A stretch of 64,000 nt of DNA. Source: Arcticibacter svalbardensis MN12-7. Its GTDB lineage: Bacteria; Bacteroidota; Bacteroidia; Sphingobacteriales; Sphingobacteriaceae. The stretch is from contig NZ_AQPN01000090.1 in the NCBI RefSeq assembly GCF_000403135.1, positions 1 through 64,000 on the forward strand. Reading direction: 5' to 3'. The notes under the pieces were generated by a model. It ran no database searches. It was not told the DNA's origin and saw nothing but the letters and a program-made list of their open reading frames with translations. A program made the position numbers and the translations under genes. This document shows, one piece after another, positions 2,827 through 52,728 of this stretch. Each line of letters starts with the position of its first letter. Position 1 is the stretch's first letter.

Positions 2827-4632
2827 TTAAATTTGTTGTAAAGATACCATTCGTTTAAATCGCTCCGACTTCTCCACCATTTCTTTAAACTTGCCACTGT
2901 AAGTTACCTCACCGCGGTCTAGCATATATATCCTATCAGCATTTTTTATTGTAGAAAGCCGATGTGCAATAATAATCATCGTATAGCTTCCCTGCAACTT
3001 TTCTATATTTTGTTGGATAACTAATTCCGTTTCCGAATCCAGCGCAGATGTCGCTTCATCTAAAATCAGAATATCTGCGTTTTTATATAACTCGCGTGCA
3101 ATGGAAATTCGTTGCTTTTGTCCTCCGGAAATCAGCATTCCTTTATCACCCAGACTGGTAAGCTCCTTTTCTGGAAGTGATTCAACAAAGTCAGTTAATG
3201 ATGACATCTCACAAACTTTCCAGAAATGTTTCTTATTCTCTTCAGTTGGTTCGGCCCAAAATGTGACATTATTAAATACATCATCTTTAAATATCACCGC
3301 TTCCTGTGAGATGTAGCCTATGCGACTGCGGAAGCTGTCCAGATTATACTCCGTAACCGGAACTCCATCAACAAACATGTTTCCACTTTCCATAGGCAGA
3401 AGTCCCGTAACGATATTTATCAGGGTAGTTTTGCCCGAACCACTCTCCCCTACCAAAGCAATCGTCTTGTTTTTTGGAATCTGTATATTCACATTTTTCA
3501 GCACAGTAGTTTGACCATATTTAAAAATCAGGTCCTTAATCTCAATACTATGCTGAAATCCAGTAAAAGGTTTTGCTACCTGTATTTCTTTCTGTGCTTT
3601 CATTTCATCAATCAGCTTCGAAACAGAATCTATAGCACCCACATTCTGAATAAAGTTTTGCCACGAATTCTGGAAGTTCATCAGGAATGATAATGCGCGA
3701 TAAAAAAGCAACAAACTTAAAATGATGGAACCTAAGTTTCCACCCAAAAACTTAATTTGTACTATGATCACCACAATAACAATCAGCATCACCATCGGCT
3801 CCTTGATACTCGTGGTTACGGCCTGGTAATAACCTACCTTGGTATTCAATGCCTCACTTTCTCTAATCACTTTTCTAATCTTACCAGAGAAACCCTTGAA
3901 TTGATTAGTTGCCTTTAGATATTTAAAGTAATGCACGGCTTCGATCAGGTGAGAGTTAAACACGTTACCTCGGGAGGAAATCTTCATTGAAGTTTTCTTC
4001 ACAGTTTTCACGGCTCTACTGAAAACCAGATTGGAGAGCAATGAACCTATAGCGACCAGAATTGCAAACTGCCAGTTGGCCAAAAAAGCCATGATCACAT
4101 AAGTTAGCAACATGGCTACTCCACTCACAGAGTTCAAATAGTGTGTGATCGCCAATTGGAGTTTTTGTACTTCCGAAGTCAGGATATTTTGAATCTTTCC
4201 TGCATCCAGCTTCAGAAAACCATTATAACTCAGGGACTGCATATCAGATGTCAGTCCAAAGCGCAATTTTTTAATAAATGTTTGTTTCAGACGTACCTGA
4301 GAGCTCAACTGAAAGAATTTGAGTCCCCCTTTTGTAGCAAACAAAATGCCCATAAGACCCAATACACTATAAATGTTAACCGGAACATGTACCGCATTAA
4401 ACATATCAGTTAGAAAATGAAGGTTACCCATTTCCTTTCCAGTACGCATATTGCCGTCATTATCCATTAATTTCAGTAAAGGAATAAACATAGCCAGACC
4501 GATACCGTCCAGACAGCTTACCATTACATTGAGCACCATGTCGAACAAAAAGCGAATACCAAGCTTCTCGTAGAAGAAGTTGAAATATTCACCTAAGAAC
4601 TTATAATTTACCTTTCTTTTTTCTTTTTTCAT
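2827..4632 (-). CDS. ABC exporter (fused permease-ATPase), putative glycan flippase
   Basis: A half-transporter of 601 residues: an N-terminal six-helix ABC type I exporter domain (about 1-330) and a C-terminal ATPase. The ATPase has Walker [10 protein letters not shown], signature SGGQKQR, Walker [13 protein letters not shown] and the H-loop IIIAHRLS. MsbA- and PglK-like proteins of this architecture move lipid-linked oligosaccharides or lipids across the inner membrane. The start codon overlaps the stop of the Wzy-like gene by 4 bp (ATGA), showing translational coupling. No Wzx-type MATE flippase is visible in the locus, so this transporter is the likely flippase (inference). Confidence 0.85.
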
Positions 4633-5789
4633 AAATTTTGATCGTGTTTTTCAACGCGTGCAGGCACCTGTAAAAATTTCATATTGGTGGTCATTAGAAA
4701 GACCATACTGATAGCAAAGAATAAATTATTAAACGAAGAGACAGAGAGGCCATTAATAAGAACGATTGCTAAAAACACAAGAATTACGTTCCGGCTAATT
4801 CCACTCTTATTCATCAATAGCCAGGTAGCATAAATGATCAAGACCAGGCCCAATAGTCCATGATCAAGAATCACCCTAAAAAGGAAGGAGTGCAGGATCA
4901 CTGAATAACAGGTTCCATCACCCGAGTAACTGAATAAATTAGTAAAATAACTCATATTATCGCAGGCGTAATAACTCAAAGGAGTGATGCGTTCATTGCC
5001 TACAAGCCAGTGCCAAAGGTTCCAGTGTTTTACCTCGCCCCAGAAAATGGTCATAAACTTAAAACGATCAATATCTTCGAGACTGCCGGAGCGTTCAGAA
5101 AATATGAAGTAAATCACTGCTCCCATTACAACAAGAGCTACGGGTATAACATAAACCCAGGTTCTAGGGAAAGAAGTGTAAAACACATAGAATACCAACA
5201 CACTATACATCAGCAAAGATGATCGGGAGAGTGATAAGATAGTAATTACACCAACTAGACCTAATACAAAAAAGGCTTTTTTACGTGTTATAGAAAACCG
5301 AACCAAATACAAGGAATAGAGCAACATCAGCTCAAAATTATTTTCCTCATAAACAACAGGCCTGTCGTCTGTATGCAGTACCAGTGCCAGTAGATATTTA
5401 ATAAAAAAAGCACCCAACAGGAAGGTGTAAAAGTTCAGAACGCCTTTAGCTGTCATGAGTCTTTTATCCGCCAGAAAGGTCAGAAAAAATAAATATATGT
5501 ATGATTTATAAATCAGCAGAAAGTCCAGCGTATTTGCATGCTTATACATAATAACATAAGCAAAGGACAGTGCAACATACAAACCAATTCCCGTTCGCAC
5601 AATCACCACACTGTCTATCCGTTGCGACTTTGCCCATAAAAAGGCAGCACCACAATATAAAATCAACAGGCCTTCGAGTCCCGACACCATAGGCGCAGTT
5701 TCCTTCCTAACCAGAAGGAAAGCCAATGACACTAATGCCATCGCAACCATGGTAACAATAAAAATTCTCTTAAAGAAGAAGGCCTTCAT
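4629..5789 (-). CDS. Wzy-like O-antigen/exopolysaccharide polymerase
   Basis: A polytopic inner-membrane protein of 386 residues with about ten hydrophobic segments and a long extracytoplasmic loop around residues 230-300 (after FIFSERSGSLEDIDRFK). This is the usual layout of O-antigen ligase/polymerase family proteins. These enzymes are poorly conserved in sequence, so the call rests on topology, size and position between a flippase-like ABC exporter and glycosyltransferases. It would join lipid-linked repeat units in the periplasm. An O-antigen ligase is the alternative. Confidence 0.7.
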   Translation of the reverse strand: MKAFFFKRIFIVTMVAMALVSLAFLLVRKETAPMVSGLEGLLILYCGAAFLWAKSQRIDSVVIVRTGIGLYVALSFAYVIMYKHANTLDFLLIYKSYIYLFFLTFLADKRLMTAKGVLNFYTFLLGAFFIKYLLALVLHTDDRPVVYEENNFELMLLYSLYLVRFSITRKKAFFVLGLVGVITILSLSRSSLLMYSVLVFYVFYTSFPRTWVYVIPVALVVMGAVIYFIFSERSGSLEDIDRFKFMTIFWGEVKHWNLWHWLVGNERITPLSYYACDNMSYFTNLFSYSGDGTCYSVILHSFLFRVILDHGLLGLVLIIYATWLLMNKSGISRNVILVFLAIVLINGLSVSSFNNLFFAISMVFLMTTNMKFLQVPARVEKHDQNL

Positions 5790-5810
5790 GTGTATATTTT
5801 CTTAGTCTTA

Positions 5811-6299
5811 TCATTTATCTTTCAAAATAAAATCCTGCAATGATTGTATTAAACTAACTGACGCAAAATCACCCATTGCAGGCAACACATAGTGGTCGGC
5901 ATCATCTCTTAAACTGATCACTTTATCTTTCAGATCGTACATGTCATACACCACCGGCATATAACCTAATTCTTCAATTTTTTTAGCAGTGGCATACTGA
6001 TGCTCATTCCGATGTTCTCCCAGTGCAGCAACGCGAGGTACAATTAAAATTGGTTTTTTATCTTTCAAAGCAGAAATAATAGTGCCCATTCCGGCATGAC
6101 TGATTACCATCTTTGATTCTTTAAAAATCCGTTTGTACTCCGTTGGGTTAAGAAACTCAACAATTTTCAAGTTCTTTACAGGGAAATCAACTCCTGATGC
6201 CTGTGCTATTACTTCTTCACCTAGTTCAGCAGCAATTTCGTCCATTGCCAGGATCAGACGGTTAAATGGCGCCTGGGTTCCAGTAGTAACAAATATCAT
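5811..6299 (-). CDS. PssE/Alg13-like glycosyltransferase subunit (GT28 C-terminal type)
   Basis: A 162-residue protein beginning MIFVTTGTQAPFNRLI with the nucleotide-sugar-binding half of a GT-B fold; the motif SHAGMGTIISAL (about 95-106) is typical of the Alg13/EpsF/PssE family. These proteins provide the catalytic, UDP-sugar-binding half and need a membrane-anchoring partner of the Alg14/PssD type, which is the next gene upstream. The two overlap by 4 bp, which supports a two-subunit enzyme that adds an early sugar to the lipid-linked intermediate. Confidence 0.85.
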   Translation of the reverse strand: MIFVTTGTQAPFNRLILAMDEIAAELGEEVIAQASGVDFPVKNLKIVEFLNPTEYKRIFKESKMVISHAGMGTIISALKDKKPILIVPRVAALGEHRNEHQYATAKKIEELGYMPVVYDMYDLKDKVISLRDDADHYVLPAMGDFASVSLIQSLQDFILKDK

Positions 6300-27464: not shown

Positions 27465-29561
27465 TTAATTACCATTTGTAATAAGGTCATGATTTTGAAC
27501 GAAAGAGATCGCATCTTCCAGGTATCTTTCCGCAAACCCTTCTTCGGGTTCATTTTGATTGATCTGCTGAACCAGGTCTTTAAAGGTTTCGTAGTTAGAG
27601 AAGTCTTCATTAAGAGCAAAATGCGTATCAAAATCTGAGATCATATTATGCTGACTACTACTTGAAATACCCTTAGTCAGTAATAAAGCTTTTGCTGTAT
27701 TAATCAGGGAGGTATAGGCATGATGAATAGAATCAGCATATAGACCTGCATCAAAAGTATTTTTTGCTTTATCAATTTTATCGTAAGCCTGCTGCAACAG
27801 TATATAGGTGAGGTCTACTGTCTCACCGGCACACTCTCCCGTGCCAATAGCTGTTTTATATGTTTCCTTATATCCCCAGTCAATAAAATCCAGATGTGTT
27901 AAGTTTGACAGATCAGACAGCGGCTTTAATAGCGTATAATAAACTCCTTTGTTATACCGGTCATAATAGTCAAAGAAAGATTCATTTAAACCAACATTTT
28001 CTCTATAATGATTTAAGATAAGTCGTAAGGCATCTGGTGCACGGCGTACAGGGATCTTTATAATTTTATCGGCAAAACGTCCCTCGCCATTTCCTAATAT
28101 ACCCCCACCAATAAGAATCTGTACAGCTGGAAGAACTTTATTATCTGCCCTTAATGAACTTCCATGCAATCCAATAGAAGCAATCGCATGATGTCCACAG
28201 GAGTTCATGCAACCACTGATCTTAACTTTGATATCGGTATGGTGCATTAAATCTTTATACTCTATTATAAATAAGTCTTCCAGTACCTGAGCCAATCCAA
28301 GACTATTTGAAATAGCTAGATTACATGTTTTGCTTCCTCGGCAAGACATCAGATCTAAAAGACTACCGGCACCTGACTCAGCTAAACCTAGCTCATTTAA
28401 TTTGGCAAAAAGAGTAGTCAGATCTTCCTTCTTTACGAATCTTAATACCAGGTTCTGATTCCCGGTTACTCGGATATCATCAGCAACTCTGTTTTTAACA
28501 TAAGAAACTAATTTCCTCAGTTTGTCTGATTTAATATCACCACCAGGCTGAAGCTTTATATAAATTCCATAGCAACCACCCTGCTTTTGCTCGAACACAT
28601 TTGTCTTGAACCAAGAATTATACTTTGTATCCGGAATAAATTTTGTTTTCTCATTCAGGTGCTGGTGTAAGCCGGACAAGGGAATACAATTCCGATCAAC
28701 GCAAAGTGATTTTACAGGGAGAGCCATTATTTGCTGTTCAATAAGAACCAACATCTCTTTTAATCCTATTTCACGAACGAAATACTTCAGTCTGGAACGA
28801 TTTTTATTCTTTCGCTCGCCGTATGAGTTAAACACACGTAACACGGATTCAATAAAAGGAATCAATTGATCTTCAGGAAGAAAGTCCTTTATTTCCTGTG
28901 CCAATAGAGGTTGGGCTCCAAGTCCCCCTCCAATAAGCACCTTAAATCCTCTTTGCTCTACACCATCCAATTGCCTTAAGCGAGGCAGGAATCCCAGATC
29001 ATGAATGAAAGATAAACCGGTATCCTCTTCACTGGAAGAAAAGGAGATTTTAATTTTCCTCCCCATTTCCTGACAAACCGGGTTATGTAGAAAGTATTTA
29101 AAAACGATGTATGCGTATGGCGAAACATCAAATGGCTCTTTAGGATCTATCCCTGCTAAAGCGGTTGCGGTAACATTTCTGACAGAGTTTCCACCTGAAC
29201 CCCTTAATGTAATATCTACCGTTTCAAGTTTGTTCCATAGTTCAGGAATTCGTTCCAAGCTAACATTATAGATCTGAATGTCCTGTCGCGTAGTAAAATG
29301 AATTAAGCCATCCGAATACGTTTCAGATATATCAGCAAGTAAAAGCATTTGACGAAAAGTTACTCTTCCAAACGGAAGCTTTATTCGTACCATTTGTCCA
29401 CCCGCTTGCCTTTGACTGTATACACCTTTAAGAGTACGCATACTCCGAAACTGATCTTCTGATAAATCGCCCTTTTTAAAGGCGGATATCGCTTCTTTTA
29501 ACTCGTCAATATCCTCTTGAGACTTTATAGATTCTACTGTATTAGGGTGACTTTCATTCAT
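27465..29561 (-). CDS. Siroheme nitrite/sulfite reductase fused to a C-terminal HEPN domain
   Basis: A 698-residue fusion. Residues 1 to about 570 are a ferredoxin-type nitrite/sulfite reductase: two ferredoxin-like half domains, siroheme-pocket motif LRGSGGNSVRNV, and 4Fe-4S/siroheme cysteines in CRGSKTC and CMNSC. These enzymes carry out six-electron reduction of sulfite to sulfide or nitrite to ammonium. Residues about 590-690 are a helical HEPN-like domain (QQAYDKIDKAKNTFDAGLYADSI then SSQHNMISDF). It lies 10 bp after nifJ, so reduced ferredoxin from NifJ could feed it. Whether nitrite or sulfite is the substrate is not clear from sequence. Confidence 0.85.
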   Translation of the reverse strand: MNESHPNTVESIKSQEDIDELKEAISAFKKGDLSEDQFRSMRTLKGVYSQRQAGGQMVRIKLPFGRVTFRQMLLLADISETYSDGLIHFTTRQDIQIYNVSLERIPELWNKLETVDITLRGSGGNSVRNVTATALAGIDPKEPFDVSPYAYIVFKYFLHNPVCQEMGRKIKISFSSSEEDTGLSFIHDLGFLPRLRQLDGVEQRGFKVLIGGGLGAQPLLAQEIKDFLPEDQLIPFIESVLRVFNSYGERKNKNRSRLKYFVREIGLKEMLVLIEQQIMALPVKSLCVDRNCIPLSGLHQHLNEKTKFIPDTKYNSWFKTNVFEQKQGGCYGIYIKLQPGGDIKSDKLRKLVSYVKNRVADDIRVTGNQNLVLRFVKKEDLTTLFAKLNELGLAESGAGSLLDLMSCRGSKTCNLAISNSLGLAQVLEDLFIIEYKDLMHHTDIKVKISGCMNSCGHHAIASIGLHGSSLRADNKVLPAVQILIGGGILGNGEGRFADKIIKIPVRRAPDALRLILNHYRENVGLNESFFDYYDRYNKGVYYTLLKPLSDLSNLTHLDFIDWGYKETYKTAIGTGECAGETVDLTYILLQQAYDKIDKAKNTFDAGLYADSIHHAYTSLINTAKALLLTKGISSSSQHNMISDFDTHFALNEDFSNYETFKDLVQQINQNEPEEGFAERYLEDAISFVQNHDLITNGN

Positions 29562-32500: not shown

Positions 32501-33092
32501 CCTCATCAGAGATCATTTCCATGATCGTTTCATCGGGTATAATTTCAACAGAATTCAATTCATGAGAAGTACGAAAACCATCGAAGATATTCATAAAAGG
32601 AACCGAAGAACTCAGCGAAGCAGAAGTAGCAATCATGGCCATATCATGTGCTTCCTGTGGATTGCTGCCAAACAGCATCGCAAAACCAGTAGAACGCACA
32701 GCCATAACATCACTATGATCACCAAAAATAGAAAGCGCATGAGTCGCCAATGCCCTTGCAGCAATATGAAAAACAGTAGGCGACAATTCACCTGCTATCT
32801 TATACATATTCGGGATCATCAATAACAGTCCTTGAGAACAAGTAAAGGTAGAAGACAAAACACCCGCTTGCAGTGCACCATGAACAGCTCCCGCAGCACC
32901 TCCCTCACTTTGCATCACGGTTACAGAGGGAACCTCCCCATAAATATTTAACTTATCATCACTGCTCCATTCTTCCGCCCATTCCCCCATTGCCGAAGAA
33001 GGTGTTATTGGATAAATAGCACAAACTTCACTTGTTTTATATGCTATGTGGGCGGCAGCCTGGTTACCGTCAATGATCTTTGTTTTACTCAT
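29571..33092 (-). CDS. nifJ: Pyruvate:ferredoxin (flavodoxin) oxidoreductase
   Basis: A single-chain PFOR of 1173 residues that oxidises pyruvate to acetyl-CoA and CO2 and reduces ferredoxin or flavodoxin. Domains in order: pyrimidine-binding domain I ([16 protein letters not shown]), transketolase C-terminal-like domains, a 2[4Fe-4S] ferredoxin domain ([12 protein letters not shown] and [12 protein letters not shown]), the CSGCGETPY proximal-cluster motif, and the TPP domain [13 protein letters not shown]. Its start overlaps the nifA stop by 8 bp. Reading with the nif genes, it is the likely electron source for nitrogenase. Confidence 0.95.
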
Positions 33093-34671
33093 TTTCGTTG
33101 TTTTTCTGATTTCTCAAACCTTTATATATTCTTGTACTGATGCTATATTTCTTTATCCTTAAACCTATTATCCGTTCCGTAATCCCCATAATTTCAGCCG
33201 CTTTAACAATGTTGCCACGGGTACTGGTCAGGGTATCAATAATCATTTGTTTTTCTACACCATCCAAGACATTCAGCAATGGCCCCTTTCGTTCTGTATG
33301 TGAGGATTCCGCTGTTTGAAGTGTTGGTGGTAAGTTTTCTGAGTTAATTACGCCGCTTACACTCAATATGCAGGCGCGTTCAATACAATTCTCCAGCTCA
33401 CGGATATTACCCGGCCAGCTATAAATCATCAATAAATCAATGGCATCACTGGAGATCCGTTTTACAGACGCATTATTCATATTATTGAATTTCTCTATAA
33501 AGTGATCTGCCAGGGTAGTGATATCCGTCTTCCGCTCCCTCAAAGAAGGAATATGCATCGGAAACACATTAATGCGATAATATAAATCTTCGCGAAACAG
33601 GTTCTGTTTGATCAACTCCTCCAGATTCCTATTCGTAGCCGCAATAATGCGTACATCTGTTTTAATCGTTTTTGTACCCCCTACTCTATCAAATTCCCTT
33701 TGTTGAATCACTCTCAACAGTTTTACCTGTATAATGGTAGGCAAATCGCCAATTTCATCCAGAAAGATCGTTCCGTGATCAGCTAGTTCAAACCGTCCTT
33801 TCCGCTGACTGGCAGCCCCTGTAAAAGAGCCTTTTTCATGTCCAAAGAGTTCACTTTCTATCAAATTCTCCGGCAAAGCAGAACAGTTTACTTTGATAAA
33901 AGGCATATTAGCACGGTTGCTCGCATAATGGATCGCCTCTGCAATAAGTTCTTTCCCGACTCCACTCTCGCCTCTGATCAAAACGGTCGCGTTTGTAGGA
34001 GCCACTGTACTCACAAGCTGATAAACCTCCTGCATTCTTCTTGAACTTCCAATGATATTTGCAGGTCGTTTAAAGCCTTTTAATTCGATACTTAACTTCT
34101 GATTTTCACTCTTCAGCCTGACCAATTCTTCCAGTTGATCCTGCCTTACCTTTACCGCCTGGGCAATAAGAGAGCCCACTATACTTAAAGTTTCCACATC
34201 CTGAACAACCGAAAAATGATCATTCTTTAAACGAAAAATACTGATCGTACCCACCGATTGTTCATCTACTTTAATGGGCACACAGATAAAAGAAACACCA
34301 CGATTTTTCATCAGGTCGTAACCTGTTTTATTTAAAAAGCGACTTTCTTTTGATATATCAGGAATAGTAATGGAGCAACCCGTTTTCACCACCAACCCTG
34401 TAATGCCTTCTCCAATCCGATATACCCCTTTTGCTTTGGCTGCTGCAGTAATCCCATATCCATCTTCTATGTAAATAGTGGACTGGTCACGATTCAAAAT
34501 GGTAATCATACTACGTTTCGCGCTGATATACTTGTTCATTAGCTCTAAAATGGGATAAAGAACATCTTTAATATCTACACTTCCATTTAATAGGGTACTA
34601 ATGCCAAAAAGCAAAGGAAGTTCAGATTGTCCGTAACAATCTCGGCCATTTCTCACACAACATGATAACAT
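33085..34671 (-). CDS. nifA: NifA-type sigma-54-dependent transcriptional activator
   Basis: A 528-residue enhancer-binding protein: N-terminal GAF domain (about 25-175), AAA+ domain with Walker A GESGVGKE (234-241), sigma-54 loop GSFTGA (281-286, a variant of GAFTGA) and Walker B IFLDEIGD, then a C-terminal Fis-type helix-turn-helix ([23 protein letters not shown]). It should activate the sigma-54 promoter found before nifH. The N-terminus carries Cys4, Cys5 and Cys12. The linker after the AAA+ domain lacks the CX4C motif of oxygen-sensitive rhizobial NifA. It overlaps nifJ by 8 bp, so activator and NifJ are made together. No obvious promoter was seen in the 215-bp gap upstream. Confidence 0.88.
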
Positions 34672-43888: not shown

Positions 43889-44269
43889 TTAATCTAATGT
43901 GAGGACACCCTTTTCTCCAGTACGGACACTAATCGAATCGAGGGCTTCAAGCACAAAGATTCTTCCGTCTCCACTGTTATTTGTTCGGTTGGTTTTAATA
44001 ATTGTTTCGATAGCAAGGTCCTTTTTATCGTCGGAAACAACCAGTGTAATCATGCGTTTCGCTTTTAAACGGTGGTTTGCTTCCGCTTCCTGCATGATCA
44101 TTTTAATTTCAGGATCATTAACAACCTCCTGATAGCTCTGTCCGAATCCCCTTTGACTCCCCCGACCCAAAACGCCCATCGCAGTAAAGGATGGTAAGTT
44201 TGCTTCAGAGAGGGCCTTCTTGGTATCGTTCATTTTCCTGATGCGTATAATTGCCAGAATTAATTTCAT
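43889..44269 (-). CDS. nifI2: PII-like nitrogenase regulator NifI2
   Basis: A 126-residue PII-family protein with the NifI2 features: MKLILAIIRIRKMNDTKKALSEANLPSFTAMGVLGRGSQRGF, then a long T-loop region with PEIKMIMQEAEANHRLKAKRMITLVVSD and C-terminal NNSGDGRIFVLEALDSISVRTGEKG. In methanogens and clostridia NifI1/NifI2 bind NifDK and shut off activity when fixed nitrogen is plentiful, relieved by 2-oxoglutarate. Placement between nifH and nifD is diagnostic. Confidence 0.93.
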   Translation of the reverse strand: MKLILAIIRIRKMNDTKKALSEANLPSFTAMGVLGRGSQRGFGQSYQEVVNDPEIKMIMQEAEANHRLKAKRMITLVVSDDKKDLAIETIIKTNRTNNSGDGRIFVLEALDSISVRTGEKGVLTLD

Positions 44270-44293
44270 AAATGGATGATCTTAATAATAAAT

Positions 44294-44656
44294 TTAACCG
44301 ATAGCTACAGATGCCTCTACTTGACCTGCCGCCAGTTCTTTAATCCCACTTGAAATTGTATAACTTTCAATTACAGGAGTAATGAAAATCTTACCATCTC
44401 CCATGGCTCCTTTATCCCCTGTTCTTGCAGCTTCGATGATTGTGTTGACTACATAATCTTTATCCGCTTCTTTGATCACAATGATCAACAGCTCTTTAGG
44501 AAGCTCATCATAGGTAATGTCGCCTACCTTTAATCCCCTTTGTTTACCGCGTCCAAACACAGGCATTTTAGTTACACCCGGAAACCCAACATCGATAAGG
44601 GCTTTCAACACGGCACTAGATTTTTCAGGTCTTACAATTGCTCTTATTAATAACAT
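44294..44656 (-). CDS. nifI1: PII-like nitrogenase regulator NifI1
   Basis: A 120-residue PII-family protein with the NifI1 pattern: MLLIRAIVRPEKSSAVLKALIDVGFPGVTKMPVFGRGKQRGL, a shortened T-loop, and ARTGDKGAMGDGKIFITPVIESYTISSG. It lies 27 bp after nifH and 24 bp before nifI2. It acts with NifI2 as a hetero-complex on nitrogenase. Confidence 0.93.
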   Translation of the reverse strand: MLLIRAIVRPEKSSAVLKALIDVGFPGVTKMPVFGRGKQRGLKVGDITYDELPKELLIIVIKEADKDYVVNTIIEAARTGDKGAMGDGKIFITPVIESYTISSGIKELAAGQVEASVAIG

Positions 44657-46683: not shown

Positions 46684-47574
46684 ATGGAAGCTTTAAAAGA
46701 CCACTGCAACGGAATGTATAAAGAGATGGAATCTAAACTGTTTTCTATCCGATCTGAGTATCCTGAAGCGTGGGACTGGTCAAAGGCTTCTATTGAAGTT
46801 ACCTCTGCATATATGGTCAGGTTAAAGGATTACATACAGCAACATCCCTTTAAATGGCGCTCAGAAGAAGTCTTTTTCTTTAGGAATATCAAACCATTGT
46901 TTTTAAAGAAGGCGATCTTCTTTTCAGAAGTATGGAACATGGAGATGGATAAACCATTGCCCCCTAATGGCAAAGAAGATCTGTTAAACTTCATCTGTAA
47001 CCAGCAAAACAAATTAGAGGAGTTCTTTGTCTCGAACTCCTTTCTATATGATTATTACCGCGATCATCAGGACTACATGGATTTCAAACTCTTTGTACGC
47101 CAACCTTCCAATCGTTTTAGATTCTGCAACATTCCTCTAAAGGTGCTCCCCATGCTTTATTATGGCGATGCAGGTTTTTCTACCGGCTACGATTACCTCT
47201 TTGCACAGTTTAAGGCGTTTGAAAAATTTAAAATGCATCTCCAGGCGGAGTATGACAAAGCGCTATTGTTAACTGATAAAAAACCTACTTTAGGAAGTTT
47301 CTCAAGCAATGCCTCCAATTTTGATGAATTGACGCATTTATTTAAGAAGGTAACCGGACCTCATTACCTGGATACTGGTCAGGTAATGAGCCTGCAGGAT
47401 ATCTCTATCATTATTCATAAGTTCCGTTCATATCCACAACAGCCGGCAAAAGAATGTGCGCTTCATCAGCTGATTTCCGAAACGGCACACCTTCCCGACA
47501 GACTCAAAGAAGTAGTGCTGTCAATTTGTAAGGAATGGGAAAATGAAACAAAAGACATCCCCTATCAAAACTAA
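46684..47574 (+). CDS. RteC-family protein
   Basis: A 296-residue protein resembling RteC, the regulator that promotes excision of Bacteroides conjugative transposons such as CTnDOT; the EEVFFFRNIKPLFLKKAIFFSEVW and KLEEFFVSNSFLYDYYRDHQDYMDFKLFVRQ stretches fit the family, and the C-terminal part is helical. It lies 14 bp after dps. No integrase, mobilisation gene or attachment site was seen nearby, so its role here may be unrelated to mobility. It ends 1 bp before the stop of a convergent gene. Confidence 0.68.
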   Translation: MEALKDHCNGMYKEMESKLFSIRSEYPEAWDWSKASIEVTSAYMVRLKDYIQQHPFKWRSEEVFFFRNIKPLFLKKAIFFSEVWNMEMDKPLPPNGKEDLLNFICNQQNKLEEFFVSNSFLYDYYRDHQDYMDFKLFVRQPSNRFRFCNIPLKVLPMLYYGDAGFSTGYDYLFAQFKAFEKFKMHLQAEYDKALLLTDKKPTLGSFSSNASNFDELTHLFKKVTGPHYLDTGQVMSLQDISIIIHKFRSYPQQPAKECALHQLISETAHLPDRLKEVVLSICKEWENETKDIPYQN

Positions 47575-47575
47575 C

Positions 47576-49243
47576 TTACTTCACTTCAGCCAGGTATTTA
47601 TGTACAAAACTGATCGCCATAGATCCCTCACCTACTGCTGAGGCTACTCTGTTCATGGCTCCGGCACGTACATCACCGGCTGCAAAAATACCCGGACAGC
47701 TGGTTTCTAACAGATAAGGATCACGATTTTGTTTCCAGACTTTATTGAAGTTAGCATAAGAGGTCAGCTCGCGACCCGTTTCAATAAACCCTTTCCCATC
47801 TTTAATAATATCAAGTTGGATCCAGTCCGTAAATGGTTTCGCCCCAATAAAAATGTATAAGGCATCCGCATTTTTAGTTTCAACTTCATTGGAATCCAGA
47901 CAAATAATATCCAGTTGTTCCAGGTTACCCGAACCCCTGGCTTCTACAATTTCCGTTTTCGATATGATATGGATATTTTCAGTCGCATTGATCTGATCAA
48001 TCAGATAAGCCGACATGGTACTACTGAGATCTTCTTTTCGAATCAGGATATACACATTTAAAGCAAATTTAGAAAGGTTCATAGCAGATTGTCCGGCTGA
48101 ATTGCCCCCACCTACGATGTACACTTCTTTACCTTTACAAGCAGTAGCCTCTGTCATAGCCGCTCCGTAATAGATCCCCGCACCAGTAAAGTCAGAAACA
48201 CCCTTAGTTTCCAATTTGCGGTAATCCACTCCTGTAGTAATCACCACACTTCGAGTCACGATCTCTTCATCATTATCAAGAATAATCCGCTTGTAACCAT
48301 CTATTTGAACGATTGATTTAACCGATTGAGGCGACAAAAATTCAGTGCCTAAACGAGTTGCCTGAGTAATAGCCCTTCTGGTCAGTTCAGCTCCACTTAA
48401 ACCTGTAGGGAAACCCAGATAATTCTCAATCCTGGAGCTCGTTCCAGCCTGACCACCAGGAGCACGCCGTTCAATCAATAGCGTTTTCAATCCCTCCGAT
48501 GCGCCATATACACCAGCAGCCAATCCTGCCGGCCCTGCGCCAATGATGACCACATCATACACATCCTGCTTTTTCAGCTGAGGATTAAGACCAATACTAT
48601 GGGCAATTTCAACAATACCAGGATTGATCAGATAAGAACCATCCTCCAAAAATATAACCGGTAAATCTTTATTACTAAGCGAATTCAGCTTAAGTAGCTC
48701 TTCCGCTTCATCCGCAATTTGAATATCAAGCCATTGGTAAGGCACTAAATTACCCGCCAGGAAGTCTTTAATCTCATGTGAATTTTGAGAATACTGATAC
48801 CCAATTACCTTAATTCCTTTGAAGTCCGGATGATACGTTTCCTGCCAATCCTCCAACAAATCATCAATAACAGGATACAACCGCTCTTCAGGTGGATCCC
48901 ATGGTTTTACCAGGTAATAATCCAATTGCACATTATTTATCGCCCGTATGGCTGCATCTGTATCCGAATAAGCCGTTAGTAAAACACGCTTGGCTTCGGG
49001 ATAGAATTTCATGGCCTGTTCAAGAAACTCAACACCCTCTAATTGAGGCATCCGCTGGTCAGATATAAAAACGGCTACCGTTTCACCCATATTTTTCAAT
49101 GCTAACAGACTATCCAGTCCTTCTTGCACAAGAGTGGTACTAACCACCTTATACCGGTCACGATATCTCGATTTTAAGTCACGGCTTAAAGCACGTAAAA
49201 CTTGTGCATCATCATCTATACAAAACAGTATCGGCAGATTCAT
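47576..49243 (-). CDS. Response regulator fused to glutaredoxin-like and thioredoxin-reductase-like domains
   Basis: A 555-residue fusion. Residues 1-125 are a receiver domain (phospho-acceptor Asp62 in FISDQRMP, Lys113). Residues about 140-220 have a thioredoxin/glutaredoxin-like layout, but the CxxC position reads SQNS. From about 230 on it is a flavoprotein resembling thioredoxin reductase (GAGPAGLAAGVYGA, GGQAGTSSRIENYLGFP, GGGNSAGQSAMNL, AGDVRAGAMNRVASAVGEG), yet the CxxC expected before the NADPH domain is replaced (GIYYGAAM). The redox cysteines are thus gone, while FAD and NADPH binding look intact. It lies 59 bp after a kinase gene on the same strand and probably forms a two-component pair with it. 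Confidence 0.88.
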   Translation of the reverse strand: MNLPILFCIDDDAQVLRALSRDLKSRYRDRYKVVSTTLVQEGLDSLLALKNMGETVAVFISDQRMPQLEGVEFLEQAMKFYPEAKRVLLTAYSDTDAAIRAINNVQLDYYLVKPWDPPEERLYPVIDDLLEDWQETYHPDFKGIKVIGYQYSQNSHEIKDFLAGNLVPYQWLDIQIADEAEELLKLNSLSNKDLPVIFLEDGSYLINPGIVEIAHSIGLNPQLKKQDVYDVVIIGAGPAGLAAGVYGASEGLKTLLIERRAPGGQAGTSSRIENYLGFPTGLSGAELTRRAITQATRLGTEFLSPQSVKSIVQIDGYKRIILDNDEEIVTRSVVITTGVDYRKLETKGVSDFTGAGIYYGAAMTEATACKGKEVYIVGGGNSAGQSAMNLSKFALNVYILIRKEDLSSTMSAYLIDQINATENIHIISKTEIVEARGSGNLEQLDIICLDSNEVETKNADALYIFIGAKPFTDWIQLDIIKDGKGFIETGRELTSYANFNKVWKQNRDPYLLETSCPGIFAAGDVRAGAMNRVASAVGEGSMAISFVHKYLAEVK

Positions 49244-49302
49244 TGCTGTATTTTGATTTAATAAACTAATAACTACATTTAAATATACTCAATCGGGATT
49301 AT

Positions 49303-50703
49303 TTAATTGTCAATAGGAAAGCAAACAACAAATTCGGTACGGTTGACAACCGAATTCACATTCACTGATCCACGATGAGATTTCACAATCCGGTTCACAA
49401 CATCCAGACCCAGTCCAGTACCCTTTCCAACATCCTTAGTGGTATAAAAAGGATCGAAGATCTTGTATATAGCTTCTTTAGAAATGCCGGAACCATTATC
49501 AATCACGGAAACTTTTACATCGTTCTTATCCTGCCGCGTTTTAATCTCCAAAACACCCTTTCCATTCATTTCCATGGCGTCGAGCGCATTGTCAATCAGG
49601 TTCGTCCATACCTGGTTCAGCTCTCCAATCATCGCTTTAACAGGCGGAATAGTAGTATCAAAATTCTGAATCACTTCCACGTTCCCCTTCCTGATCTTAT
49701 GCTCCAACATGGTCAGCGTATTGCGGATCCCGTTATGAATATCGGCGTATTGTTTGTCGCGCCCCTGATCCATGTGAGTGAAATTTTTAACTGAGCCCAC
49801 CAATTTGGAAATCCGTTGTGATGCCTCCACGATATCAGTTACCATTTTTTCAGTAATCAACTGATTGTTCATCCATTTAAAACCTGCATTTAAAGATTCC
49901 TGAGCAATATGCGCTTTAAAATAATCCAGATCATCAAGTGTAAAACCAAAATCAACAAACGTTTCAGCTATTTCAGGACAGTTACGTACTTGATTAGCTT
50001 CTAGCCAGTCGCTAAACTCATCCTCCAGATTGGATCGTTGCATTAAAGTAAGTGCAGGTTTCTCTTCCCGGTTTAACAGTTCGAATAATTTTACATTGAC
50101 GATGTCAATTTCTTCCTCACTCATTTTCAATGACATGATCAGCTTGAAAGTTTCAGGAATCAGATGCAGATGTTTTTTAAGTGAGATGGAGCCCCTAACC
50201 ACCGCCACTGCAGGGTTATTCAATTCATGAGCTAACCCAGCCGAGAGCTTGCCCAAAGCCATCATCTTTTCATTTTGCTGTTCTAAAGCAGTGAAATCGC
50301 GTACCCGGCTAGTCATAATATGCACCAGCGCCTGTGTAAGTTCAAACTGGTTATGAATCATCTCTTCCGTTTTCTTCATTGGGAGGAAAAGAAGCTCGGT
50401 AGGTAATATAGCCTGACCAATTCCGTTAGAAAACTTCCCCCTTGAAAATGGCAAATGCCCCGTGATAGACTTCGATTCAAAATTTGTTATTTCCCGTAAT
50501 TCGTTATTTTGCTTGATGGATAACTTAATTATGCCACTAATGACCACAAAAGTTCCTTTAATTGGATCTCCCTGATTAAATAAATAATCCCCTTCCTCCA
50601 GCTTGACAAGTGTGCTATTATCTAATAACCATTGCAGCTGTTCAATGGGAACATCTTTAATCGCCTCAATTGTTTGCAGCCATTCGGTTGTTAATACATT
50701 CAT
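49303..50703 (-). CDS. Sensor histidine kinase with N-terminal cyclic-nucleotide-binding domain
   Basis: A soluble kinase of 466 residues: cNMP-binding-like domain (about 15-130, DYLFNQGDPIKGTFVVISGIIKLSI), a dimerisation/phosphoacceptor helix LSAGLAHELNNPA (His159), and a C-terminal HATPase with N-box NLIDNALDAM, G1 VIDNGSGI and G2 GTGLGL. No membrane segment, so the signal is internal. It pairs with the receiver-flavoprotein fusion encoded next. Whether cAMP, cGMP or another ligand binds the sensor is unknown. Confidence 0.88.
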   Translation of the reverse strand: MNVLTTEWLQTIEAIKDVPIEQLQWLLDNSTLVKLEEGDYLFNQGDPIKGTFVVISGIIKLSIKQNNELREITNFESKSITGHLPFSRGKFSNGIGQAILPTELLFLPMKKTEEMIHNQFELTQALVHIMTSRVRDFTALEQQNEKMMALGKLSAGLAHELNNPAVAVVRGSISLKKHLHLIPETFKLIMSLKMSEEEIDIVNVKLFELLNREEKPALTLMQRSNLEDEFSDWLEANQVRNCPEIAETFVDFGFTLDDLDYFKAHIAQESLNAGFKWMNNQLITEKMVTDIVEASQRISKLVGSVKNFTHMDQGRDKQYADIHNGIRNTLTMLEHKIRKGNVEVIQNFDTTIPPVKAMIGELNQVWTNLIDNALDAMEMNGKGVLEIKTRQDKNDVKVSVIDNGSGISKEAIYKIFDPFYTTKDVGKGTGLGLDVVNRIVKSHRGSVNVNSVVNRTEFVVCFPIDN

Positions 50704-51126
50704 ATAAACAGATTGTTAAAATAAAAATAGGGTTAAAAATGCTTATATGCTAAAGCAGAATAATTTAGTATTCTTACTCTTAATTTTTTCGCACATTATA
50801 CCCACCTGAACCGCAGCTCCTCCGCACCTCCTCCGCTCGGAATGCGAATAAAGTGGGGACAAGGTGAAAGTTATTTCCCTTTCAATTATAAAGAAGGTCA
50901 TACCCATTATACATTTCTTAGTTATTTTTTTCTCCTGAGAGTTTAATTCAACTAATCTACACACCATTAAGGAGACTAAACACATATACATTTTCAGCTT
51001 TTAATTCAGTGCAGCCTGGAATGTATACACCTATCGATATTCGTAATATATTTTTATTATTCCCCACTATTTATCAAAACTTATTTTATAAATTTATATT
51101 AACAACTCTTTTATAACACTTTGTAT
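50704..51126. other. Intergenic region between divergent kinase and patatin genes
   Basis: 423 bp without a convincing gene. A small open frame on the minus strand (50743-50991) has no family resemblance and starts inside a region of mixed composition, so it is left out. A GC-rich patch at about 50811-50840 contains CTCCTCCGC twice (50817-50825 and 50828-50836), unlike the AT-rich surroundings. The promoters of both flanking genes must lie here, but none is clear. Confidence 0.55.
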
Positions 51127-52161
51127 ATGAAAAAGATACTATCGATTGATGGAGGTGGAATCCGCGGAATAATAGCCGGACAAATTCTCGTAGCCCTTGA
51201 GCAGAAACTACAGAAAAAAACAGGAAATGACCAGGCTCGCATAGCCGATTACTTTGATTTTTTTGCCGGTACCAGTACCGGGGGAATCCTCACTTGTATT
51301 TGTTTATGTCCGGATGAAAATAACCCTACCTCTCCCCGGTTCTCGGCACAGGAAGCTGTGAATTTATATGTTAAAAATGGAGCTAAAATATTCGACACGA
51401 ACCTATGGCACCGCATTCATTCCGGAGAGGGAATGCTGGACGAAAAGTTTGATGCAAAACCACTAGAAGACTGTCTGAAGGAATATTTTGGAGATTTAAA
51501 ACTGAGTCAGTTGGTTAAACCCTGTATAATCACCTCCTATGATATTGAAGGTAGGAATACTCATTTTTTTGCTCAGCAAGACCATTTATCAAAGGGTGAA
51601 GGTGGCGACTTTCTGGTAAGAGAAGTTTGTCGGGCTACCTCTGCTGCACCCACCTATTTTGAAACCGCTTTAGTTAAGTCGCTCAGCGGTGTATCTTATG
51701 CTTTGATTGATGGTGGCGTATTTGCCAATAATCCAGCTTTATGTGCCTATTCCGAAGTCCGCACGTCAAATGGAGAACCAACAGCAAAGGACATGTTTAT
51801 CGTATCAATTGGTACTGGCAGTGAAAATAAACCTTACAAATATGAAGATGCTAAAGATTATGGTGCTATTGGATGGATAAGGCCAATTATAGACATCATG
51901 ATGGCTGGAGCATCGGAAACAACCCATTATCATTTAACGAAAATGTTTGCGGCACAGGGGAATGAAGATAATTATATTCGGATTCAGCCTTCCAGCATTA
52001 GAAGAGCGAAATTTGAAATGGATAACGCTACACAAGATAATATTAACGCTTTGGTTGAAGTAGGAATAGCTACCGCTCAGGATTGTCCTGATTTAGACCG
52101 CATTGTAGAGGTGCTTTTAAAGGACAAGGATAGCGTTCAATTCAAAGAATTAAGCTACTAA
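51127..52161 (+). CDS. Patatin-like phospholipase
   Basis: A 344-residue serine lipase with the Ser-Asp dyad of patatins: oxyanion loop DGGGIRG (8-14), nucleophile elbow GTSTGG (Ser50), and DGGVFANNP with the catalytic Asp. The start is ATG 51127; a TTG two codons upstream is also open. No signal peptide is seen, so it is cytoplasmic or released otherwise. Similar enzymes serve as CBASS anti-phage effectors (CapV), but no nucleotide cyclase gene is adjacent, so a plain lipase role is more likely. Its end overlaps the convergent heme oxygenase gene by 12 bp. Confidence 0.9.
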   Translation: MKKILSIDGGGIRGIIAGQILVALEQKLQKKTGNDQARIADYFDFFAGTSTGGILTCICLCPDENNPTSPRFSAQEAVNLYVKNGAKIFDTNLWHRIHSGEGMLDEKFDAKPLEDCLKEYFGDLKLSQLVKPCIITSYDIEGRNTHFFAQQDHLSKGEGGDFLVREVCRATSAAPTYFETALVKSLSGVSYALIDGGVFANNPALCAYSEVRTSNGEPTAKDMFIVSIGTGSENKPYKYEDAKDYGAIGWIRPIIDIMMAGASETTHYHLTKMFAAQGNEDNYIRIQPSSIRRAKFEMDNATQDNINALVEVGIATAQDCPDLDRIVEVLLKDKDSVQFKELSY

Positions 52162-52728
52162 AAAGGTATTCGTTTTATCGACCCATTGACTAAATTTTGC
52201 GAATGTATCATTAGCAGACTGGATCACCATGTCCTTTTCATCTGCTGTCATTGGCTGATCCATAAACTGTTTAAAAAGCTGCCACATGGTATCGGTATCG
52301 CTTCCATATCCATCGAAAAAAGTTAGTCCGATAACATGAGGAAGATCTATTTGCTGCCGTACCATTTTGCTTATAAACTTGCCACCCAAAGTAGATCCTT
52401 CGATCACATAAAGGGCGCCTAGTGCTTGCAGATGGTTGTTTATTTCTGGCAGATCGTCATTGCTTGCCAGAGATGGAAGTGCTGTTTTCAATAGGATCAA
52501 GTCATTTTCAAGAGCAGCTGTTTTCCGGCGATCTGCATAATCGGGCAAAAAAGCAGTATCAATGTGTTTGTTGATATTAACTTCCAGACCTCCAAAAAAG
52601 CTATAGAAGATTACTAATAACCGCGCTAGACTTTCCTGATTATGAATTGATTTCATTGGGAGAATCAATTTGTTTTCAAGTGACTGATGACTATTTTTGG
52701 TATTGATTTTTATATTTTCGGAAAGCAT
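52150..52728 (-). CDS. Heme oxygenase (biliverdin-forming)
   Basis: A 192-residue heme-oxygenase-like protein of the BphO type: N-terminal SHQSLENKLILP with the proximal His14, ALYVIEGSTLGGKFISKMV, and FFDGYGSDTDTMWQ. It would cleave heme to biliverdin, CO and iron. Bacteriophytochrome genes often adjoin such enzymes; none is seen here, so iron release from heme is the simpler role. It lies 6 bp after the YbaK-like gene. Confidence 0.8.
   Translation of the reverse strand: MLSENIKINTKNSHQSLENKLILPMKSIHNQESLARLLVIFYSFFGGLEVNINKHIDTAFLPDYADRRKTAALENDLILLKTALPSLASNDDLPEINNHLQALGALYVIEGSTLGGKFISKMVRQQIDLPHVIGLTFFDGYGSDTDTMWQLFKQFMDQPMTADEKDMVIQSANDTFAKFSQWVDKTNTFLVA

Follow-up and report, generated by a model that had tools for sequence, protein, structure and literature searches.

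A kinase and response regulator pair with a thioredoxin-reductase-like output lacking both CxxC sites in Arcticibacter svalbardensis MN12-7

Response regulators in which a receiver (REC) domain is joined to a thioredoxin-reductase-like (TrxR-like) domain have already been mentioned (PMC5847659), and the same domain combination is present in a 555-residue protein encoded in the DNA analysed here, a stretch of 64,000 nucleotides (the window) that comprises positions 1 to 64,000 of contig NZ_AQPN01000090.1 of Arcticibacter svalbardensis MN12-7. We describe this regulator together with the histidine kinase encoded next to it, a pair that lies beside a nitrogen fixation (nif) island. Plasmid relatives of the regulator carry the product name 'FAD-dependent oxidoreductase' and, in the ten best matches, are 46–53% identical to it over 99% of the query. 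The window protein thus belongs to a recorded architecture; what we add, as family traits, are the missing cysteines, the kinase partner, and the company of zf-UBP and Kef genes, none of which is mentioned in the accessible part of PMC5847659. Nor did searches of the open-licence literature show, among the papers listed, one on the loss of CxxC, the fixed kinase partner, or the zf-UBP or Kef company of this family.

Three other described systems invite comparison. An NCBI product named 'cyclic nucleotide-binding domain-containing thioredoxin-disulfide reductase' has the same glutaredoxin-like and CxxC-less TrxR-like core, at about 42–45% identity, but carries a cyclic nucleotide-binding (cNMP) domain instead of the receiver, and its 'disulfide reductase' name is unsupported by the residues. 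Low-Mr thioredoxin reductase (TrxB) and AhpF have FAD and Rossmann motifs in common with the window regulator, which has a CxxC at neither site; AhpF also has an N-terminal thioredoxin-fold part, with a redox CxxC there. The KefC-KefF system of Escherichia coli is comparable by analogy only; KefF is of another fold than the TrxR-like regulator. According to the accessible part of PMC10224563, E. coli Kef is an antiporter activated by glutathione adducts and serving electrophile defence, and KefF is an oxidoreductase subunit with quinone-reductase activity; KefF is about 20 kDa, unlike the window regulator, and the Kef link of the present family is seen in some relatives only, not in the window's genome.

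The pair consists of two open reading frames (ORFs) 59 bp apart, with the kinase upstream and the regulator downstream. Both lie on the minus strand exactly where the original prediction put them, and its reading of them as a kinase plus a receiver fused to redox folds is borne out. The features are as follows:

47576..49243, minus strand: response regulator of 555 amino acids with REC, glutaredoxin-like and TrxR-like domains, ATG start at 49243 (ORF; Pfam Response_reg and Pyr_redox_2)
48854..49243, minus strand: receiver domain, about residues 1–130, with D11/D12, D62, T90 and K113 (Pfam)
48566..48820, minus strand: glutaredoxin-like domain, residues 142–226, with SQNS replacing CxxC and the cis-proline place P195 kept (profile match to 2lqo)
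47579..48568, minus strand: TrxR-like FAD/NAD(P)H domain, residues 226–555 (family models, structure-profile match, TrxB alignment)
48155..48178, minus strand: GIYYGAAM, residues 356–363, at the place of the TrxR CxxC (alignment with the genome's own TrxB)
49303..50703, minus strand: cNMP-fold histidine kinase of 466 amino acids, with cNMP domain at 33–118, H-box His159 and HATPase at 362–464 (ORF; Pfam)

A scan of positions 47400–51200 for promoters (sigma-70 types only) and terminators gave sites no more numerous than in shuffled sequences. The RteC-like gene at 46684–47574 on the plus strand converges on the regulator gene, and a single base lies between their ends.

Loss of both CxxC sites in the regulator family

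Pfam places Response_reg at residues 7–119 of the regulator, above the cut-off, and Pyr_redox_2 at residues 229–540. The stretch between them resembles a glutaredoxin: a profile built from 47 homologous segments matches the mycobacterial glutaredoxin 2lqo (E=8e-9), and 31 of the 47 match Pfam Glutaredoxin at E<=1, the window's own segment with E=0.03 and 15.0 bits, below the cut-off of 22.9. By sequence the TrxR-like domain is nearer to thioredoxin reductase (structure 7aaw, E=2e-45) than to ferredoxin/flavodoxin-NADP reductase (3lzw, E=5e-18). The regulator scores under the curated cut-offs of the family models for thioredoxin reductase (TIGR01292; 220.8 bits, cut-off 343.45), AhpF (TIGR03140; 138.3 bits, cut-off 502.9) and the YpdA bacillithiol-disulfide reductase (TIGR04018; 54.6 bits, cut-off 339.9).

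Alignment of the window regulator with 46 relatives and nine plasmid relatives, 56 rows from five phyla, reveals no CxxC at either site in any row. The original prediction that both pairs are gone from the window protein is confirmed: the first site reads SQNS (residues 152–155) and the second GIYYGAAM, against CAVC in the genome's own TrxB. The first position of the glutaredoxin site is a serine in 53 rows, an aspartate in two and a leucine in one, and never a cysteine; the second is a cysteine in three rows, the window not among them. At the TrxR site there is no cysteine at positions 360–364 in any of the 56 homologues, and elsewhere in the protein a CxxC occurs in one row only, a Deinococcus form with a cNMP domain. 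In five further plasmid homologues CxxC is likewise missing from both sites, and one of these has a lone cysteine at the second position of the first. The replacement at the second site is itself conserved, with Tyr359 in 56/56, Gly360 in 54/56 and Glu365, at what we take to be the place of the general-acid aspartate of TrxR, in 54/56; the cis-proline place P195 is invariant (56/56). As CxxC is absent at both sites across five phyla, we conclude from the alignment that the loss is old, shared and family-wide, and with both relays lost the regulator is not expected to perform ordinary thioredoxin-type disulfide reduction.

The cofactor sites have fared differently. Residues G235, G237, G240, G263, G264 and Q265 of the FAD motif, GGQ included, are present in all 56 rows, and the Rossmann motif GGGNSAG is kept in the window regulator. 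Presumably the three arginines of HRRxxxR are the contacts of TrxR to the 2′-phosphate of NADPH; the genome's own TrxB reads VRRDEFR in this stretch, and the window regulator keeps only the first arginine (R402), which is found in 55/56 rows, the second in 14/56 and the third in 1/56. Since two of the three are mostly lost, either NADH or NADPH may serve as the cofactor, and the claim that FAD and NADPH sites are kept stands for FAD and should read NAD(P)H for the other. Similarly, the description of the redox folds as cysteine-less applies to the CxxC pairs and not to the protein itself, which has C8, C369, C448 and C516. The receiver appears intact throughout, with D11, D62, T90 and K113 in all 48 REC-bearing rows of the alignment and D12 in 47.

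The core occurs in REC-fused, cNMP-fused and unfused forms, the last (422–425 residues) in genomes G122 and G138 and as a second copy in G187; three alphaproteobacterial rows match from residue 143 onward only. In a tree of 61 rows the genome's TrxB falls far outside, although its place is unsure because it is a single outgroup on a long branch. One starred set joins the REC forms of the window's phylum and those of four other phyla, and includes the unfused forms and two cNMP forms as well; the four unfused forms make up one well-supported group, and the cNMP forms lie in at least two places. The simplest reading of these sequences would be a common core with swapped front domains. We also note that in locus L067 an unfused form is preceded by a long ORF that reads as ClpB from its start.

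A dedicated kinase partner

Co-occurrence was examined in 296 genomes of the window's phylum, the Bacteroidota, all at least 90% complete and related to one another, with thresholds of E<=1e-60 for the regulator family, E<=1e-50 for the kinase and E<=1e-100 for NifD, and in 111 genomes of the window's family. The regulator family is found in 45 of the 296 genomes, with 41 full-length members and five matches that have no receiver part (one genome has both kinds). The kinase is found in 41 genomes, in one of which (G086) the match covers residues 140–466 only. These are the same 41 genomes that have the full-length regulator, neither gene being found alone. In 35 of them the two genes are less than 350 bp apart (on opposite strands in G014), in five they are farther apart on the same contig, and in one they are on different contigs. 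Within the window's family the kinase and the regulator are in the same 17 of the 111 genomes, one pair being about 26 kb apart, and three further genomes have a match without the receiver part. The pairing extends beyond the phylum: six named plasmid loci with a REC form were opened, which come from Cyanobacteriota, Actinomycetota, Deinococcota and Pseudomonadota, and in all six the kinase (annotated 'ATP-binding protein') is the next gene. Judged from these distributions, kinase and regulator are a dedicated two-component pair, conserved across phyla and not brought together by chance. On the Nostoc (L091) and Gloeothece (L092) plasmids the pair follows glgX and an AGE-family epimerase gene, a different setting, with glycogen genes, that gives no hint of stress.

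The kinase has above-cut-off matches to Pfam cNMP_binding (36.2 bits, cut-off 27.5) and HATPase_c, and a weak one to HisKA (19.7 bits, under the cut-off of 26.9). The H-box core HE[LVI]NNP is present in 43/43 aligned kinases and the N-, G- and F-box positions are conserved; in the window kinase the H-box stretch and the second conserved helix stretch lie about 100 residues apart. The phosphate-binding cassette of cNMP domains has the form GE..L....R.A, a motif that is not matched in the window kinase, where the stretch reads GHLPFSR. Because G.LP.S[RK] stands in place of the cassette in 36/43 kinases (five of the six plasmid kinases are without it), binding of cAMP by this domain is in doubt.

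Possible functions and genomic company

We tentatively favor the interpretation that the regulator is an NAD(P)H flavoprotein switched by phosphorylation, that it carries out no disulfide chemistry itself, and that it probably serves thiol, electrophile or protein-damage stress. The kinase would autophosphorylate on His159 under the control of its N-terminal cNMP-fold domain, and the phosphate would pass to Asp62 of the regulator. The output would not be DNA binding, and would instead lie in the TrxR/AhpF-shaped module, predicted to hold FAD and NAD(P)H; by rearranging the domains, the receiver probably controls both the reduction of the flavin by NAD(P)H and the access of the flavin (or of its redox state) to a partner. 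That partner could be a client protein bound to the glutaredoxin-like domain, or else a small substrate of electrophile or quinone-like kind. This would make it an unusual response regulator, with redox or nucleotide chemistry rather than transcription as its output. The pairing, the intact receiver and kinase residues and the non-thiol NAD(P)H/FAD reading agree with a redox role under a cNMP-domain kinase as originally proposed; the link to nif that came with it does not hold, as discussed below. Relatives from five phyla bear the names of FAD-dependent oxidoreductases or thioredoxin-disulfide reductases, yet those aligned are without the residues for disulfide chemistry; dropping the disulfide-reductase name raises the question of what role is played by a receiver-controlled TrxR fold without CxxC.

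The suggestion of a stress role is based on the settings in which relatives are found, involving zf-UBP, Kef, ClpB-TrxA and a mycothiol dehydrogenase. We scanned 50 neighbourhoods (40 of the 46 regulator-family matches, locus L038 and nine plasmid loci, with the window as a 51st) and found profile hits to zf-UBP in 19, to a Kef-type antiporter in 16, to a DsbA-like protein in 10, and to a ring-cleaving-dioxygenase-like protein and Abhydrolase_2 in nine each. Family f23 shows a usual order, with gaps in some loci, of dioxygenase-like, hydrolase, Kef, DsbA-like, zf-UBP, kinase and regulator genes; the nine zf-UBP loci outside it are from families f10, f8, f41, f29 (two), f4 and f1, and from Streptomyces and Tsukamurella. 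Across the 296 genomes zf-UBP (PF02148) is above cut-off in 31, of which 28 are among the 45 with the flavoprotein and three are outside, an overlap that is descriptive as the genomes are related; in a control, two of 14 genomes had a PF02148 match. Where zf-UBP occurs without the flavoprotein (three genomes), the cluster labels place Kef directly beside zf-UBP, one gene off, or in the same ORF. Kef and zf-UBP share an ORF in L060 (by Pfam), in L061 and L063 (by profile) and in Deinococcus ficus, and we note that this antiporter with a C-terminal zf-UBP domain occurs in two phyla (L114, D. ficus pDFI2, 4171–6207; L060, 4267–6315). We do not name the dioxygenase-like and Abhydrolase_2 neighbours MhqO and MhqD, proteins of quinone resistance, because neither passed an NCBIfam model, and the '-like' label alone is used; among plasmid relatives of the dioxygenase-like protein, 15 of 343 are made up of nine 'ring-cleaving dioxygenase', two 'VOC family protein' and four without annotation.

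The plasmid records extend this picture. Core (E<=1e-40) and zf-UBP were searched separately and found in 133 and 87 records respectively, and they lie no more than 1 kb apart in at least 21 records among 60 matches of each compared by eye, several being near-copies. Of 11 zf-UBP plasmid loci opened, two were already known to be adjacent to the core; among the other nine, three have zf-UBP beside the core and one has a Kef fusion. Plasmid pA of Rhodococcus pyridinivorans (L117, 311527–323790) has the order dnaK-grpE-dnaJ-cbpM-clpB-trxA-zf-UBP-cNMP form, the last CxxC-less and TrxR-like, and in the Tsukamurella set an S-(hydroxymethyl)mycothiol dehydrogenase, above the curated cut-off, is encoded two genes past the kinase. 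The zf-UBP gene adjoins a FUSC-family gene in L108 (Rhizobium) and L109 (Streptomyces).

Several observations weigh against this interpretation. No zf-UBP hit is found in 31 of the 50 neighbourhoods, zf-UBP is absent from 17 of the 45 flavoprotein genomes, and five of the nine blindly opened zf-UBP plasmid loci have neither flavoprotein nor Kef within 6 kb. The counts are not independent, as f23 contributes 10 of the 19 loci with zf-UBP, 12 of the 16 with Kef and all nine with the dioxygenase-like and hydrolase genes. In the window the five partner profiles are without a hit over about 8 kb to either side, and among the window genes compared there is no constant third neighbour of the pair in the window's family. 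In the window's genome the zf-UBP gene and the dioxygenase-like homologue are on other contigs, unlinked to the pair, and no Kef of this kind is found at E<=1e-10, an empty answer that shows nothing by itself as the search had no positive control. As these linkages are missing from the window's genome and no such Kef was found there, the stress role is carried over from relatives. In addition, AlphaFold models from two-sequence alignments (the window and one related locus) were poor, with mean pLDDT of 51 and 57.

A somewhat unlikely alternative is that the flavin/NAD(P)H module, rather than working as an enzyme, senses the redox state of NAD(P)H/NAD(P)+ or of the flavin and feeds back through the receiver on the kinase or a partner. 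Loss of both CxxC sites beside an invariant FAD motif is consistent with such sensing, as is the strict pairing with one kinase, and the exchange of front domains (REC, cNMP or none) fits a signalling module. However, the existence of unfused forms without a receiver suggests a function of their own, and Glu365 is retained at the general-acid place.

The phosphorylation-switched flavoprotein might also be one part of a larger arrangement, a widespread and unnamed stress module in which it retains the TrxR/AhpF architecture by inheritance, acts, thiol-free, together with a bacterial zf-UBP protein and in some lineages gates Kef as KefF does; we consider this unlikely as it stands. In eukaryotes the zf-UBP fold grips the free tail of ubiquitin. 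If the module is real, it would be a second, thiol-independent route by which the status of NAD(P)H and of electrophiles is coupled to protein repair and K+/H+ exchange, zf-UBP being the docking part. The zf-UBP and Kef company offers testable phenotypes.

It is distinctly improbable that the regulator is still a thiol oxidoreductase, acting through a lone cysteine (C369) or through the cysteines of a partner. YpdA-type reductases do use a single cysteine, position 369 (four residues past the general-acid place) is a cysteine in 31/56 rows, a lone cysteine stands at the second position of the glutaredoxin site in 3/56, and DsbA-like and TrxA neighbours are encoded in some loci. Position 369 is, however, a phenylalanine in 17/56 (16 of them from f23) and another residue in 8/56, and the match to the YpdA model is far under its cut-off.

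The neighbouring nitrogen fixation genes

Three plus-strand genes (ferredoxin, Dps and RteC-like) lie between the pair and nifH, which is 2 kb away. It had been proposed that the pair may sense cellular reductant and, as its placement hinted, exert redox control over nitrogen fixation. We think this almost certainly wrong, and the claim should be dropped: the pair is common in relatives without nif genes, 40 of the 41 genomes that have it being without a NifD match, as are 16 of 17 in the window's family, so that pair and NifD are together in one genome of the 296 and one of the 111, the window's own in the larger sample; moreover, the genes between are on the opposite strand and the nif island carries a separate activator. 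NifD is found in 67 of the 296 genomes and in one of the 111; the negative association means little by itself, as 63 of the 67 are from one family, f17.

Synteny points the same way. Starting at nifD, 18 genes of the window were matched against 11 loci of the family (10 with the pair, one with an unfused form; 12–19 kb per locus). In the stretches read the nif, ferredoxin, Dps and RteC genes have no match; besides kinase and regulator, only a heme oxygenase at one locus and part of a TonB receptor at another gave one. A general nif-regulatory role is therefore rejected on co-occurrence and synteny, and the nif genes look like chance neighbours of the pair. There is no clear step in base composition at the border between pair and nif genes. 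The activator of the nif island is a GAF-sigma54-HTH protein (33085–34671) and likely a NifA-type regulator; two short ORFs at 43889–44656 are presumably nifI1 and nifI2.

Two other genes of the window may be noted. A heme-oxygenase gene lies near the kinase at 52150–52728, and in locus L041 a gene with 38% identity lies beside the kinase at 4979–5521. Near the nif island, at 27465–29561, is a gene whose product is of the nitrite/sulfite-reductase type and has a HEPN domain at its C terminus (Pfam HEPN, residues 588–653).

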